A DNA stretch of 64,000 nucleotides, taken from Mangrovibacterium diazotrophicum (GTDB lineage Bacteria > Bacteroidota > Bacteroidia > Bacteroidales > Prolixibacteraceae). Each line of letters opens with the position of its first letter. Position 1 is the stretch's first letter. Where the stretch lies: the NCBI RefSeq assembly GCF_003610535.1, contig NZ_RAPN01000002.1, positions 372,001 through 436,000 on the forward strand. The letters run 5' to 3'. A model generated the notes under the pieces. That model was given only the letters and a program-made list of their open reading frames with translations. It was not told the DNA's origin and did no database searches. This document shows positions 52,570 through 58,438 of this stretch, piece after piece. The position numbers and the translations under genes are program-made.

Positions 52570-52585
52570 TTTAAGCATACTTAAA
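52570..52585. promoter_or_regulatory. DtxR/MntR-type operator of the feo locus
   Basis: TTTAAG-CATA-CTTAAA is a perfect 6+4+6 palindrome 21 bp upstream of the first regulator ATG at 52606. Its AT-rich symmetric form resembles the operators bound by DtxR-family metal repressors. Binding by either DtxR-like protein of this locus is an inference. Confidence 0.55.
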
Positions 52586-52605
52586 AATAAACTTACTCTA
52601 CTGAT

Positions 52606-53274
52606 ATGAGCTCCATTGCAAGCGAAAATTTCATCAAAGCAATTTATAAATTCGAGCAGGGCGAAGGCTTCGACACCCGCCCGGGTTCCATTGCCAAAGA
52701 ATTGGGCATAACCAACGCCGCCGCAACTGATATGGCACGAAAACTTGCCGACAAGAAGCTGATTGATTACGAAAAATACAAAGCGCTAAAACTGACGACC
52801 AATGGCGAAAAGCTAGCTCTGAATATAGTGCGCAAACATCGTTTGTGGGAAACATTTCTCCATCAGGTATTTGGCATGACGATGCACGAAATACATCGCG
52901 AAGCAGAACTACTGGAACACCTCACGTCTGACTTTTTAGCAGACAAAATCAGCCTGTTCTTGGGACACCCTACGACTGATCCTCATGGAGATCCGATTCC
53001 GGACGTTGAAGGAATGTTACCTATTGCCGACAACGCCTTCATCCTCTCGACTGCTGAAGACGGGAAAGAATATCAAATAAGTCGGTTAGCCGGCTCCGAT
53101 AAAGAGTTTTTCGACTTCTGTCACTCAAATGAGCTAGCTGTTGGCGCCACCATCAAAGTGAACCGGCAATACCCCAAAAACCGGATGACCGAAATTGAAA
53201 TCAACGGGACCAAATTGCTGCTCAATGCAGAACTAACGAACACTATTTATATCAAAGAATTGATCGAAGAGTGA
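52606..53274 (+). CDS. MntR/DtxR-family metal-dependent regulator
   Basis: A 222-residue regulator: winged helix-turn-helix (about 5-65), dimerisation domain (about 70-135) and a C-terminal SH3-like domain (about 150-220). Metal ligands can be compared by eye: the His in VRKHRLWETF (His78) and ELLEH (Glu101, Glu104, His105). The position that is Cys102 in iron-type DtxR is Glu here, as in manganese-type MntR. It should repress or sense Mn/Fe. It is the first gene of the feo locus, 53 bp ahead of a membrane-anchored relative, and is preceded by the palindromic operator. Confidence 0.9.
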   Translation: MSSIASENFIKAIYKFEQGEGFDTRPGSIAKELGITNAAATDMARKLADKKLIDYEKYKALKLTTNGEKLALNIVRKHRLWETFLHQVFGMTMHEIHREAELLEHLTSDFLADKISLFLGHPTTDPHGDPIPDVEGMLPIADNAFILSTAEDGKEYQISRLAGSDKEFFDFCHSNELAVGATIKVNRQYPKNRMTEIEINGTKLLLNAELTNTIYIKELIEE

Positions 53275-53327
53275 TAAATTACATTCGCTACTCGCTAGAC
53301 AAATAAGAAAATAGAGAAGCTTAAAAT

Positions 53328-54377
53328 ATGAAAACACTAATCGTTTTAATTATAAAAGCCAGCTGGATGATTTTGATTGCGCTTGCGCTGATCGGATTAC
53401 TGGCCTGGATTTTTTGGCCTAAAAAAGGTTTAATTGCTTTCATCTCGAAACGCAAGCTGAACGACGAGCGCGTATTACTGGAAGACGCACTAAAGTACCT
53501 TTTCGAATGTGAGTACCGGAAAAGTAGCTGCGAAATGAACAGCCTGGCAGGCGCACTCAATATCTCGGGCGATCGAGTCAGCAAATTGATTCAGCACCTG
53601 CAGGGAATGGGACTGATCAACCTGAATGATAACTTGATTAGCCTGACCGATAGCGGACGATCTTACTCACTTCGGGTTATTCGCGTTCACCGGATCTGGG
53701 AGCGCTACCTGGCTGATGAAACCGGAACCGCTCAACCCGACTGGCACGAGAAAGCCTGCGAAATAGAACATTTTGTAACCGATGCCGACACCGAAAAGAT
53801 AGCGGCTCAGATGGGCAACCCGGTCTTCGACCCGCACGGCGATCCGATACCAACCGCTGAAGGTGAATTGCCCGAGTCAAAAGGAAAATCGCTGAGTACG
53901 TTGCAGGAGGGCGAAATTGGCCGGATCATCCACATTGAAGATGAACCACGCAGCATTTACGAGCAACTGGTTGTGCTGGGCTTGTATCCCGGTATGCAGG
54001 TTTATGTAACCGACGTGACCGCCGATAAAATCACATTTGCAGCCGACGGTGACGAGTGCACACTCACGCCGCTGTTTGCCACGCACATCACGGTTGAACC
54101 GCTATCGAGCAAAACCCGGGTTACACAAAAACAAGACATTCTTTCGGAACTGAAAGTTGGCGAAAAGGCTGAAGTTATTGGAATATCACCAAACTGCCGA
54201 GGGCAGCAACGCCGCCGCCTGATGGACATGGGCATTGTACCGGGAAGCCTAATCACAGCGCAAATGATCAGTGCATCCGGCGACCCGATTGGCTATCGAG
54301 TGATGGGAACAACCGTTGGCATCAGAAGGCAGCAGGCCGATCTCATTTTCATCAACAAAAACATCAACCATGAATAA
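53328..54377 (+). CDS. Membrane-anchored DtxR-like protein fused to two FeoA domains
   Basis: A 349-residue protein. In order: one hydrophobic segment (about 5-30); a DtxR-like winged helix and dimerisation region (about 45-160) with His121, and the triad Cys144, Glu147, His148 as in iron-type DtxR; then two FeoA-type SH3 domains (about 188-258 and 270-342), the second with [13 protein letters not shown] and [10 protein letters not shown] close to free-standing FeoA. FeoA is the small partner of the ferrous-iron transporter FeoB. An iron-sensing DNA-binding-type module tied to the membrane next to FeoA is unusual; whether it still binds DNA is unknown. It overlaps the FeoB GTPase gene by 8 bp. 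Confidence 0.88.
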
Positions 54378-55176
54378 TCCAACAAATTGCAATAGCTGTC
54401 CGGCTCACAACCGGGAAAACCTGGTGAAATTGGGGGTCGACATGACCGAGACCGATTATGTGATCGCCCTGGCCGGCAACCCGAATGTTGGCAAAAGTAC
54501 GGTTTTCAACAACCTGACCGGCTTGAGGCAACACACAGGGAACTGGCCTGGCAAAACCGTCAGCCGCGCCGAAGGAGCTTTCAGTTTCAACGATAAACGC
54601 TACAAAATAGTGGATTTGCCCGGCACCTACTCGCTGCTTTCAACCAGCACCGACGAAGAAGTTGCCCGTAATTTTATCCTGTTCGGACAACCCGATGTGA
54701 CCCTGATTGTAGTCGATGCCACCCGCCTGGAACGGAATTTAAACCTGGTGCTGCAAATACTGGAAATTACCGACCGCGCTGTACTTTGCCTTAACCTAAT
54801 GGATGAAGCCAAACGCAACAACGTGGAGATCGATGAACGTGCGTTGTCGCGGGAACTGGGTATTCCAGTCATTCCGGCATCTGCCCGCCGACGGGTTGGC
54901 ATGAATGAGGTACTGGCAGCGCTAGAGGATGTCGCTACCGGCAAATACGTTTGCAAACCGCATAAAATCAAAAGCCACTCGCCCAAACTCAACCATGCCA
55001 TCGAAACAGTATCGGCAAAACTAAACGAACAGTTCCCGAACCTCCCCAACCTGAAATGGGTGGCGCTGCGACTGCTTGAAGGCGACAATAGCATTATGGA
55101 GGCCGTTCGGAACGGCGAATTGGGCAACTTAAATCCAAACATTTCAACCACAGCAGAAGTCTTAAGTTATGAATAA
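54370..55176 (+). CDS. feoB: FeoB GTPase domain protein (N-terminal half of split FeoB)
   Basis: A 268-residue protein from the ATG at 54370. A short Cys-rich start (CNSCPAH, residues 7-13) precedes a complete G domain: G1 GNPNVGKS (36-43), G3 DLPG (82-85), G4 NLMD (142-145), G5 SAR (171-173), then a helical guanine-dissociation-inhibitor-like region. The membrane part of FeoB is encoded separately by the next gene. Both borders of this gene are 8-bp ATGAATAA overlaps, showing translational coupling on both sides. It powers or gates ferrous iron import. Confidence 0.93.
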
Positions 55177-56599
55177 GCAAACAGCAAACGATCGCGAAGA
55201 AATACTTTCGGTAGTCAACAAGGCCCGGTGGGATTTGGGTGTCAATTTTCACGATACGGTTATCGAATCCATTTATGCCGACGCCTCAAAAATCGCCCGA
55301 AAAACGGTGCACCAAAAAGGCGACAAAGAAGCCTACAGCCTCGATATAAAAATTGACAAAATTGTGACCAGCCGCTGGCTTGGATTCCCGCTCATGTTCC
55401 TGATTTTAGCACTGGTATTCTGGATCACAGTGGCCGGAGCAAACTATCCATCGGGACTTTTGGCCTCGCTGCTGATTGATTACATGCACCCCATTCTGAA
55501 AAGCGGTGCAGCAGCAATTCATCTGCCCTGGTGGCTTGATGGCGTATTGATCGACGGCGCTTACCTGGCAATGGCTTGGGTGATCGCTGTGATGTTGCCA
55601 CCAATGGCTATCTTCTTTCCGCTATTTACACTGATGGAAGATCTGGGCTATTTGCCGCGCGTCGCATTCAACATGGACAACCTATTCCGCCGTGCCGGAG
55701 CACATGGCAAACAGGCGCTAACCATGAGCATGGGCTTTGGATGTAACGCCGCGGGCGTTGTTGCAGCCCGGGTGATCGACTCTCCACGCGAACGATTGGT
55801 CGCGATCATCACCAACAACTTTTCGCTCTGCAACGGCCGCTGGCCCACGCAGATTCTAATTGCTTCAATTTTCATAGGAGGACTGGTTCCAGCAAGCTTC
55901 GCGGGGATTGTTTCTGCCGGTGCAGTTGTTGGAGTCGCCGTATTGGGAATCTTCTTCAGTCTGGTTGTGTCGTGGGGATTGAGTAAATCGGTGTTAAAAG
56001 GCGAAGCTTCCGCCTTCAGTCTGGAGCTTCCCCCCTATCGTCCGCCACGCATCTGGCAAACGCTATATACGTCGCTCATCGATCGCACTATTTTTGTACT
56101 GTGGCGTGCCATTGTTTTTGCCGTTCCGGCAGGTATTGTCATTTGGGTTGTCGCCAATGTAAAAATTGACGGAATCAGCCTGGCCGAACACTTCATTGAT
56201 TGGTCCAATCCGTTTGCATTTGTATTCGGGTTGAACGGCGTTATTTTGCTGGCATATATCATTGCCATCCCAGCGAACGAGATTGTTATTCCAACCGTAC
56301 TGATGCTGACCGTTCTGAGCAGTAAACTTGCCGGTATGGGGTCCGGAACCGGTGTCATGTTCGAACTCGATTCTACTGCCGACACCGCTGCTGTGCTAAA
56401 GGCCGGCGGCTGGACGCTGCTAACCGGAATCAACCTGATGCTTTTCAGCTTGCTGCACAACCCCTGTTCAACAACAATTGTGACCATTTACAAAGAAACC
56501 AAGAGCCTAAAGTGGACACTGGTATCAACCTTCTTACCAATCGCACTGGGATTGATCGTTTGCTTCTTTACCACTCAAATTTGGTTCCTGCTACAGTAG
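55169..56599 (+). CDS. feoB: FeoB membrane permease domain protein (C-terminal half of split FeoB)
   Basis: A 476-residue protein with about eight membrane segments holding the two Gate (nucleoside-recognition) motifs of Feo[27 protein letters not shown] and the GFGCNAAGV Cys motif in the first, and NEIVIPTV in the second; the C-terminal NPCSTT contains another conserved Cys. The N-terminal 60 residues match the linker that in one-piece FeoB joins GTPase and membrane parts. Together with the preceding gene the full FeoB (about 744 residues) is present, so this is a clean split, not a deletion. A frameshift linking them is not excluded. Confidence 0.93.
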
Positions 56600-56627
56600 C
56601 TTTTCGGAAAACACGATAAAATGAAAG

Positions 56628-56656
56628 ATGTCGCCCCAACCGGAGCGGCATTTTTT
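56628..56656 (+). terminator. Intrinsic terminator of the feo locus
   Basis: ATGTCGCCCC / GGAGCGGCAT stem (one mismatch, one wobble) with a 4-nt loop and T6, 28 bp beyond the permease gene. Confidence 0.85.
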
Positions 56657-58260: not shown

Positions 58261-58264
58261 TAAG

Positions 58265-58338
58265 CGGTGCGGACGGGATTCGAACCCGCGACCCCCGGCG
58301 TGACAGGCCGATATTCTAACCAGCTGAACTACCGCACC
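58265..58338 (-). tRNA. tRNA-Asp (GTC), distal copy
   Basis: Cloverleaf on the minus strand: acceptor GGTGCGG / CCGCACC with G as discriminator, anticodon loop CTGTCAC giving anticodon GTC, and T arm GCGGG-TTCGAAT-CCCGT. CCA is not encoded. Identical in sequence to the copy at 58365-58438. Confidence 0.97.
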
Positions 58339-58364
58339 AGTAGTGCTTTTTTCTAATCGATTTG

Positions 58365-58438
58365 CGGTGCGGACGGGATTCGAACCCGCGACCCCCGGCG
58401 TGACAGGCCGATATTCTAACCAGCTGAACTACCGCACC
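58365..58438 (-). tRNA. tRNA-Asp (GTC), proximal copy
   Basis: Same 74-nt sequence as the other copy, exactly 100 bp away, with a 26-bp AT-rich spacer between them. It is transcribed first from the promoter at 58519-58548. Confidence 0.97.

Follow-up and report, generated by a model that had tools for sequence, protein, structure and literature searches.

We analysed a 64,000-nt stretch of Mangrovibacterium diazotrophicum DNA (contig NZ_RAPN01000002.1, positions 372,001 to 436,000; hereafter the window, in whose coordinates all positions are given). It carries an operon for a Feo-type metal importer in which FeoB is divided into two polypeptides and a FeoA domain is joined to a DtxR-like metal sensor that is predicted to be anchored in the membrane. 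Four genes on the + strand encode a cytosolic DtxR/MntR-type regulator (P0001, 222 aa, 52606..53274), the anchored DtxR-FeoA protein (P0002, 349 aa, 53328..54377), a FeoB GTPase subunit (P0003, 268 aa counted from the ATG at 54370, 54370..55176) and a FeoB permease subunit (P0004, 476 aa, 55169..56599). The stop of P0002 overlaps the start of P0003 (54370..54377, +), and the stop of P0003 overlaps the start of P0004 (55169..55176, +), both by the same 8 bases, ATGAATAA, as read from the sequence. A palindrome, TTTAAGCATACTTAAA (52570..52585, without strand), lies 20 bases upstream of the P0001 gene.

P0001 has the full domain set of a DtxR-type regulator: its DNA-binding, metal and FeoA/SH3 domains all score above their Pfam cut-offs (Fe_dep_repress 36.6 bits; Fe_dep_repr_C 99.5 bits, cut-off 27; FeoA/SH3 35.6 bits). 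It is the cytosolic MntR-type paralogue that the original prediction, made from the sequence letters, had placed ahead of the anchored gene. Its best NCBIfam match is MntR (NF047407, 147.5 bits, under the cut-off of 350). The DtxR metal domain was found in P0001 and P0002 only in this genome. The same cannot be said of FeoA, for which P0002 had been thought to hold the only domains: P0001 has one at residues 147–217, and two more FeoA-FeoB proteins are encoded in the genome.

The anchored sensor

Comparisons draw on loci from a scan of named genomes. These are the best 80 of the 521 matches confirmed there, so that the sample favours close relatives; its rows are not independent, and two of them (L048 and L117) look like one locus counted twice. 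The anchored proteins were compared in an alignment of 86 sequences.

The N-terminal membrane segment that had been proposed for P0002 is borne out at the level of prediction. In the AlphaFold2 model (mean pLDDT 88.9) a transmembrane (TM) helix spans residues 2–28 (block pLDDT 85–94) and, together with the turn WPKKGL, takes up residues 1–31 (53328..53420, +). Hydropathy of the anchor reaches at least 1.6 in a 19-residue window at 78 of the 80 loci; L084 has 1.51, and a contig end truncates L071. The 20 residues past the turn carry a mean net charge of +4.9 versus −0.2 ahead of the helix, with the inside more positive than the outside in all 84 proteins scored (two of the 86, without the motif, were dropped). 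The helix is thus predicted to be inserted in the membrane. In the model, a second helix (35–63) continues into the DNA-binding domain and is followed by a DtxR fold; the top Foldseek matches are manganese-type and iron-type DtxR regulators (5zr6, E 5.3e-17, target-normalised TM-score 0.91).

The metal-binding and dimerisation domain of P0002 (residues 107–176, 53646..53855, +; H121, E125, H140, C144, E147, H148) matches Fe_dep_repr_C with 79.1 bits (cut-off 27), whereas the winged helix-turn-helix (HTH; residues 52–106, 53481..53645, +) is degenerate, with an acidic core and 14.5 bits for Fe_dep_repress, under the cut-off of 26. All 86 aligned proteins keep E52, D53, H121, E125, H140, H148, H202, D205 and E206, and E147 is kept in 85. 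Over 62 matched loci, the ratio of HTH to metal-domain entropy is 1.93 (1.85–2.01) in anchored proteins versus 1.17 (1.13–1.21) in the cytosolic paralogues. The HTH core has a mean net charge of −1.9 in the anchored family (85 of 86 scored) versus +2.5 in the cytosolic set (57 of 62; the one anchored and five cytosolic proteins lacking the anchor motif were dropped), +3.3 in other MntR-type proteins (22/22) and +3.8 in fusions of DtxR to ABC permeases (5/5).

Two FeoA domains had been read at the C-terminus, and the second of them stands. Full-length DtxR-type regulators in the PDB align with the P0002 family profile up to position 256, spanning the stretch called ‘FeoA 1’ (53895..54101, +; H202, D205, E206), which by this alignment is DtxR's own SH3-like domain; the second alone is then an extra FeoA. 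The latter (residues 272–343, 54141..54356, +, the best stretch for Pfam FeoA) matches solved FeoA proteins (7r7b, E 3.1e-14; 2k4y, E 2.6e-13) and is basic (mean net charge +4.5). FeoA is carried by 17/17 anchored proteins in the alignment.

A FeoB in two pieces

P0003 matches FeoB_N with 205 bits (cut-off 27) and includes the first half of the GDI domain; its letters include NLMDEA and further segments that we take to be the G motifs of the GTPase. P0004 matches Gate (78.2 bits) and FeoB_C (49.7 bits), both above cut-off. Neither protein alone reaches the cut-off of the FeoB equivalog TIGR00437 (315.65 bits; P0003 214.5, P0004 162.1). FeoB was said to be cut between its GTPase and permease parts; the split holds, and its position shifts. 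The FeoB_Cyto (GDI) profile of 90 positions is covered from 2 to 47 in P0003 versus 4 to 89 in a one-piece relative (L061), which, by profile coverage, places the break within GDI. In a model of that one-piece protein, of moderate quality (mean pLDDT 71), the break falls in a low-confidence loop (249–262) between GDI helices 3 and 4.

A split FeoB follows the anchored protein at 76 of the 80 loci; FeoB is in one piece at two (Mariniphaga anaerophila and Thermophagus xiamenensis), and two loci are cut by contig ends. That the split is inherited excludes a sequencing error, which the original prediction had allowed for, and likewise a break in the assembly.

A tree was built from 34 FeoB proteins, in which a branch with 100/100 support separates 28 FB2-like ones (22 split, 6 in one piece) from 6 canonical ones; this tree and the DtxR tree below were drawn with midpoint rooting, and the program flagged long branches. 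The state, split or one-piece, changed at least three times on well-supported branches. The one-piece FeoB of Mariniphaga and Thermophagus is nested among split ones (support 96/94), which suggests that the two pieces act as one machine. At the joint these proteins are ∼28 residues longer than the one-piece FeoB of Prevotella and of genome G511, as would be expected of re-fusion.

The system shares with canonical FeoA-FeoB pairs and fusions (e.g. in Bacteroides fragilis) the G1 and other GTPase motifs, GDI, Gate, FeoB_C and a FeoA partner. It differs in that FeoB is two polypeptides broken within GDI and is distant in the tree, that P0004 has the signature CNGRWP in place of S/G-ARLP (SARLP/GARLP), and that FeoA is joined to the sensor instead of to FeoB. 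A split FeoB with a free FeoA and no anchored DtxR occurs in genome G555 (FeoA of 92 aa) and on plasmids of Metabacillus and Cytobacillus. The FeoA domain of P0002 is, judging from these relatives in which a free FeoA stands in its place, the FeoA of the transporter. On the two plasmids (L193 and L195) the FeoA and split FeoB genes lie beside genes for a cation diffusion facilitator and ArsR/SmtB; a ZIP transporter gene is additionally near them on the Cytobacillus plasmid (L195).

Ahead of the GTPase, P0003 has a CxxC motif (Cys7 and Cys10, residues 7–10; 54388..54399, +) that is kept in the family: G1 was located in 85 of 86 rows, and the motif lies upstream of it in all 85. In the Metabacillus protein the GTPase match already begins at residue 6, too early for the motif to fit ahead of it. 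On the GTPase, the motif could serve to bind metal or as a redox site. A search for a solved permease structure returned no PDB sequence that matched the profile of the P0004 family at E values up to 1.

Operator and transcriptional control

The presence of the palindrome proposed as an operator was confirmed. The pattern TTTAAGnnnnCTTAAA occurs once in the 5.8-Mb genome, at 52570–52585, and the reversed control pattern three times. Among loci with a cytosolic DtxR gene in first place, 41 of 57 have a relaxed version of the pattern, TTARRnnnnYYTAA, within 120 bases upstream (mean of shuffled sequences 1.58, maximum 5); where the anchored gene is first, the count is 4 of 26 (0.55, maximum 3). 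The predicted operator thus goes with the cytosolic paralogue. Because it tracks this gene, and because only two proteins in the genome have a DtxR metal domain, P0001 is the likely repressor of the operon.

A regulon beyond the operon was considered and dropped: the genome-wide search, which covered the exact pattern rather than degenerate sites, gave this single match, so the metal is not readable from co-regulated genes. Matches to terminators and σ70 promoters were no more frequent than in shuffled sequences, and we claim neither.

Conservation and spread

The same four-gene layout recurs in distantly related bacteria and is conserved across phyla: the best 80 loci span Bacteroidota, Ignavibacteria, Calditrichota, KSB1 and Anaerolineales. 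A cytosolic DtxR gene lies upstream on the same strand at 55 of them and divergently at 3; it is not nearby at 18, and at 4 there is too little room to judge. The system is uncommon. In evenly drawn scans, full-length anchored proteins were found in 5 of 395 genomes of the class, and an FB2-like permease in 7 of 344 genomes of the order. Among the 61 nearest genomes four have the complete system and one (G023) has remnants, which indicates ongoing loss of the system in one relative within the family. In the latter (locus L010), 87 aa of the anchored protein (1474–1737) and 199 aa of the permease (2066–2665) are left.

Origin of the anchor

In the DtxR tree (4 of 62 rows were dropped beforehand, and the MntR-type rows are those found by the anchored-protein search) the anchored proteins, soluble twin-FeoA proteins and fusions of ABC-3 permeases to DtxR fall together, separated from the cytosolic paralogues and other MntR-type proteins by a branch with 100/100 support. 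The distance from PxxG to EDxLK is 21 residues in 85 of 86 anchored proteins (one is off pattern) and in 5/5 fusions. The ABC-3 Pfam match of the fusions stops 1–2 residues ahead of an APxxGL turn, at the place where the anchored protein has WPKKGL. When a 39-column profile of the TM helix and linker was searched against 4202 open reading frames, fusions came at ranks 1, 2 and 4 (E 0.019, 0.87 and 2.7). Given the constant spacing and the tree, besides the weak profile, we read the anchor of P0002 as the last TM helix and linker left from an ABC-permease/DtxR fusion. The ABC-3 domain was absent among the first 25 of 38 families listed for the 17 aligned anchored proteins.

A fusion of this type is known from chlamydiae: cleavage is reported to free YtgR, a repressor, from YtgC, and relatives occur in 11 phyla (PMC5599777, a review). 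P0002 resembles such fusions in having a DtxR domain behind a TM helix, with helix and linker agreeing in sequence and spacing; the comparison covered the five Bacteroidota fusions. The differences are that P0002 has one TM helix, an added FeoA and FeoB as partner rather than an ABC system, and that the HTH core is basic in the five fusions and acidic in the anchored family. ABC-3 permeases with C-terminal DtxR and FeoA/SH3 domains were seen in Bacteroidota at L121/L160, L122, L134, L170 and L171; such matches, many of them shorter, occur in 20 of 296 genomes of the phylum scan.

Relation to PgMntR and the metal transported

The closest described counterpart is PgMntR (PG1044) of Porphyromonas gingivalis, reported as a soluble 35-kDa protein with twin FeoA domains from the operon of the manganese transporter FB2 (PG1043); it is reported to bind Mn and, tightly, Fe(II), and has the same Cys as P0002 (PMC4805248). 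Its authors proposed a twin-FeoA subfamily from 41 database matches (PMC4805248). P0002 shows the pattern of this subfamily, namely DtxR, two FeoA-type domains and the PgMntR ligand set: 11 of the 12 published candidate ligands have the same letter at an offset of +36, and Asp19 corresponds to Asp53 at +34. The original prediction had named a well-studied soluble family as what would speak against it, and PgMntR is in part such a case, being a soluble twin-FeoA relative; the word ‘transmembrane’ does not appear in its paper, which mentions no TM helix (PMC4805248).

The two systems are alike in having DtxR and two FeoA-type domains in one operon with FeoB. They differ in the TM anchor, the split FeoB and the second, cytosolic DtxR of the present system, while PgMntR was made as a soluble protein. 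Loci that look like PgMntR/FB2, in which a soluble protein is paired with FeoB in one piece, were found in Prevotella oral taxon 299 (L192) and in genomes G511 and G614, and their FeoB proteins share a clade with that of P0003/P0004; the latter probably groups with P. gingivalis FB2, in a tree without FB2 itself.

The Cys144/Glu147/His148 set noted earlier as iron-type is present and yet not typical of the family. Column 144 of the alignment holds Glu in 46 sequences, Asp in 34, Cys in 5 and Arg in 1; the mostly Glu/Asp occupancy corresponds to a manganese-type ligand set, and D53 is likewise a manganese-type ligand. We infer that the importer is more likely one for manganese, or for manganese and iron, than one for plain iron. 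The genome also encodes two one-piece FeoA-FeoB proteins (open frames of 851 and 822) and has four Nramp matches, so that the P0001–P0004 set is an extra system.

Proposed mechanism and alternatives

Our reading, to which we give a probability of about 0.55, is that the split FeoB2-type importer is gated by a FeoA subunit that sits anchored in the membrane and senses metal, and that the cytosolic paralogue represses the operon. P0004 would form the pore. P0003, as a separate GTPase subunit, would dock on the permease and complete a GDI helical bundle common to both, and P0002 would serve as the FeoA subunit on a DtxR-like metal sensor, kept beside the pore by its single TM helix. Cytosolic metal filling the conserved DtxR sites would change the shape of the sensor dimer, whose FeoA domain would then engage or release the GTPase piece and so throttle transport in the membrane (fast control). 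P0001 would bind the palindrome and repress the operon (slow control). With such a layout, the cell may be able to limit metal uptake directly at the transporter. Contact between FeoA and NFeoB reportedly stabilises FeoB in its GTP-bound state (PMC8980893), which gives a FeoA-borne sensor a point at which to act.

Between gating and a tethered repressor, the two functions offered by the original prediction, the data favour gating, albeit without proof. Coupling of sensing to gating is preferred because the ligands are kept, the HTH is acidic and drifting, FeoA is attached, synteny with FeoB is maintained and the operator goes with the paralogue. These features, like the parts themselves and the match in anchor spacing, are read from sequence; membrane insertion, formation of a complex, gating and the identity of the metal are inferred. 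We would extend the reading, tentatively and at somewhat less than even odds, to its history: the last TM helix of an ABC metal permease and the DtxR fused to it would have been detached, linked with FeoA and taken into service by an FeoB2-type importer, with sensing and gating in one complex, the GTPase a detachable subunit that has a GDI bundle in common with the permease, and the paralogue running transcription. If true, a DtxR repressor has turned into a transporter subunit, and one sensor fold serves fast gating and slow repression in a single operon.

FeoC, which has a winged-helix fold, may serve as a model for how an HTH could come to contact FeoB. FeoC is not known to have DtxR-type metal sites, and P0002 differs from it in having no FeoC family match at E 0.1. 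Binding of FeoC, a small regulator, to NFeoB has been reported (PMC8749426).

Several observations weigh against sensing coupled to gating and against the origin proposed for the anchor. PgMntR is reported to bind its own promoter in vitro; Mn strengthens this binding, and removal of the second FeoA abolishes it (PMC4805248). The two soluble PgMntR-like relatives that were scored have equally acidic HTH cores (−3 and −3), so charge alone cannot rule out DNA binding, and the HTH fold of P0002 is still predicted with high confidence by AlphaFold2. At the 18 of 80 loci without an adjacent cytosolic paralogue, control is unexplained. The TM/linker profile alone is weak, the remaining two of the five fusions not being near the top, and the sole clear ABC-3 permease of the genome has no PxxGL turn. 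Manganese by elimination fails, given the four Nramp matches and the two FeoA-FeoB proteins.

Some of these points would suit P0002 as a DtxR repressor that is tethered at the membrane and freed by metal or by a protease, in the manner of YtgC-YtgR, with FeoA serving folding and metal binding. Besides DNA binding by PgMntR with its need for the second FeoA (PMC4805248) and the HTH fold kept in the model, the basic extra FeoA and the grouping of the P0002 DtxR part with permease-DtxR fusions (100/100) agree with this, YtgR being reported as cleaved and repressing (PMC5599777). Yet HTH core and wing are acidic and fast-varying relative to the cytosolic set, and the HTH charge is not raised where the adjacent paralogue is missing (−1.7, n = 18, versus −2.0 with it, n = 61; +0.3 in the 3 divergent loci). 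The operator is also rare upstream of an anchored gene in first place (4/26), and the neighbouring P0001 has an intact DNA-binding domain. We consider a tethered repressor unlikely.

An assembly scaffold, in which P0002 supplies FeoA and pins the GTPase to the membrane with DtxR as a structural dimeriser and metal not regulating transport, would account for the presence of FeoA in every anchored protein aligned (17/17), and a separate GTPase piece would need tethering. On this account, which we think improbable, it is hard to see the metal ligands as the most conserved residues despite a drifting HTH; lineages with split FeoB and free FeoA lack an anchor, so tethering is not always needed. As to an iron-specific Feo system in which Cys144 sets iron sensing, Cys144, Glu147 and His148 are present as in DtxR, the Cys is kept in five related sequences, and PgMntR with the same Cys is reported to bind Fe(II) tightly (PMC4805248). 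Those five are only 5 of 86, however, D53 is of manganese type, and the 100/100 branch parts this FeoB from the canonical one, leaving a plain iron system unsupported; we regard it as very improbable. The original assignment to iron is accordingly not supported, the ligands being mostly manganese-type and the PgMntR/FB2 analogue a manganese system.

Known and new elements

Import of Feo type and sensing of DtxR type are known; their combination here is new and its mechanism unproven. Two Feo papers describe both the control of FeoB and the role of FeoA as unsettled (PMC8980893, PMC8749426). A survey of FeoA fusions removed FeoA-DtxR proteins by hand (PMC8980893), which makes the group easy to overlook, and the main text of an evolutionary Feo survey contains neither ‘split’ nor ‘DtxR’ (PMC8749426). 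In titles and abstracts of the openly licensed literature searched, neither a split FeoB nor an anchored DtxR-FeoA protein is described. The family offers natural dissections, namely a GTPase severed within GDI, a fusion of FeoA to the sensor, two genera in which FeoB is re-fused, and relatives whose FeoA is free, and these make metal-sensing gating of a Feo transporter at the membrane directly testable.

Downstream of the operon, two tandem tRNA-Asp (gtc) genes lie on the − strand, at 58264–58338 and 58364–58438.

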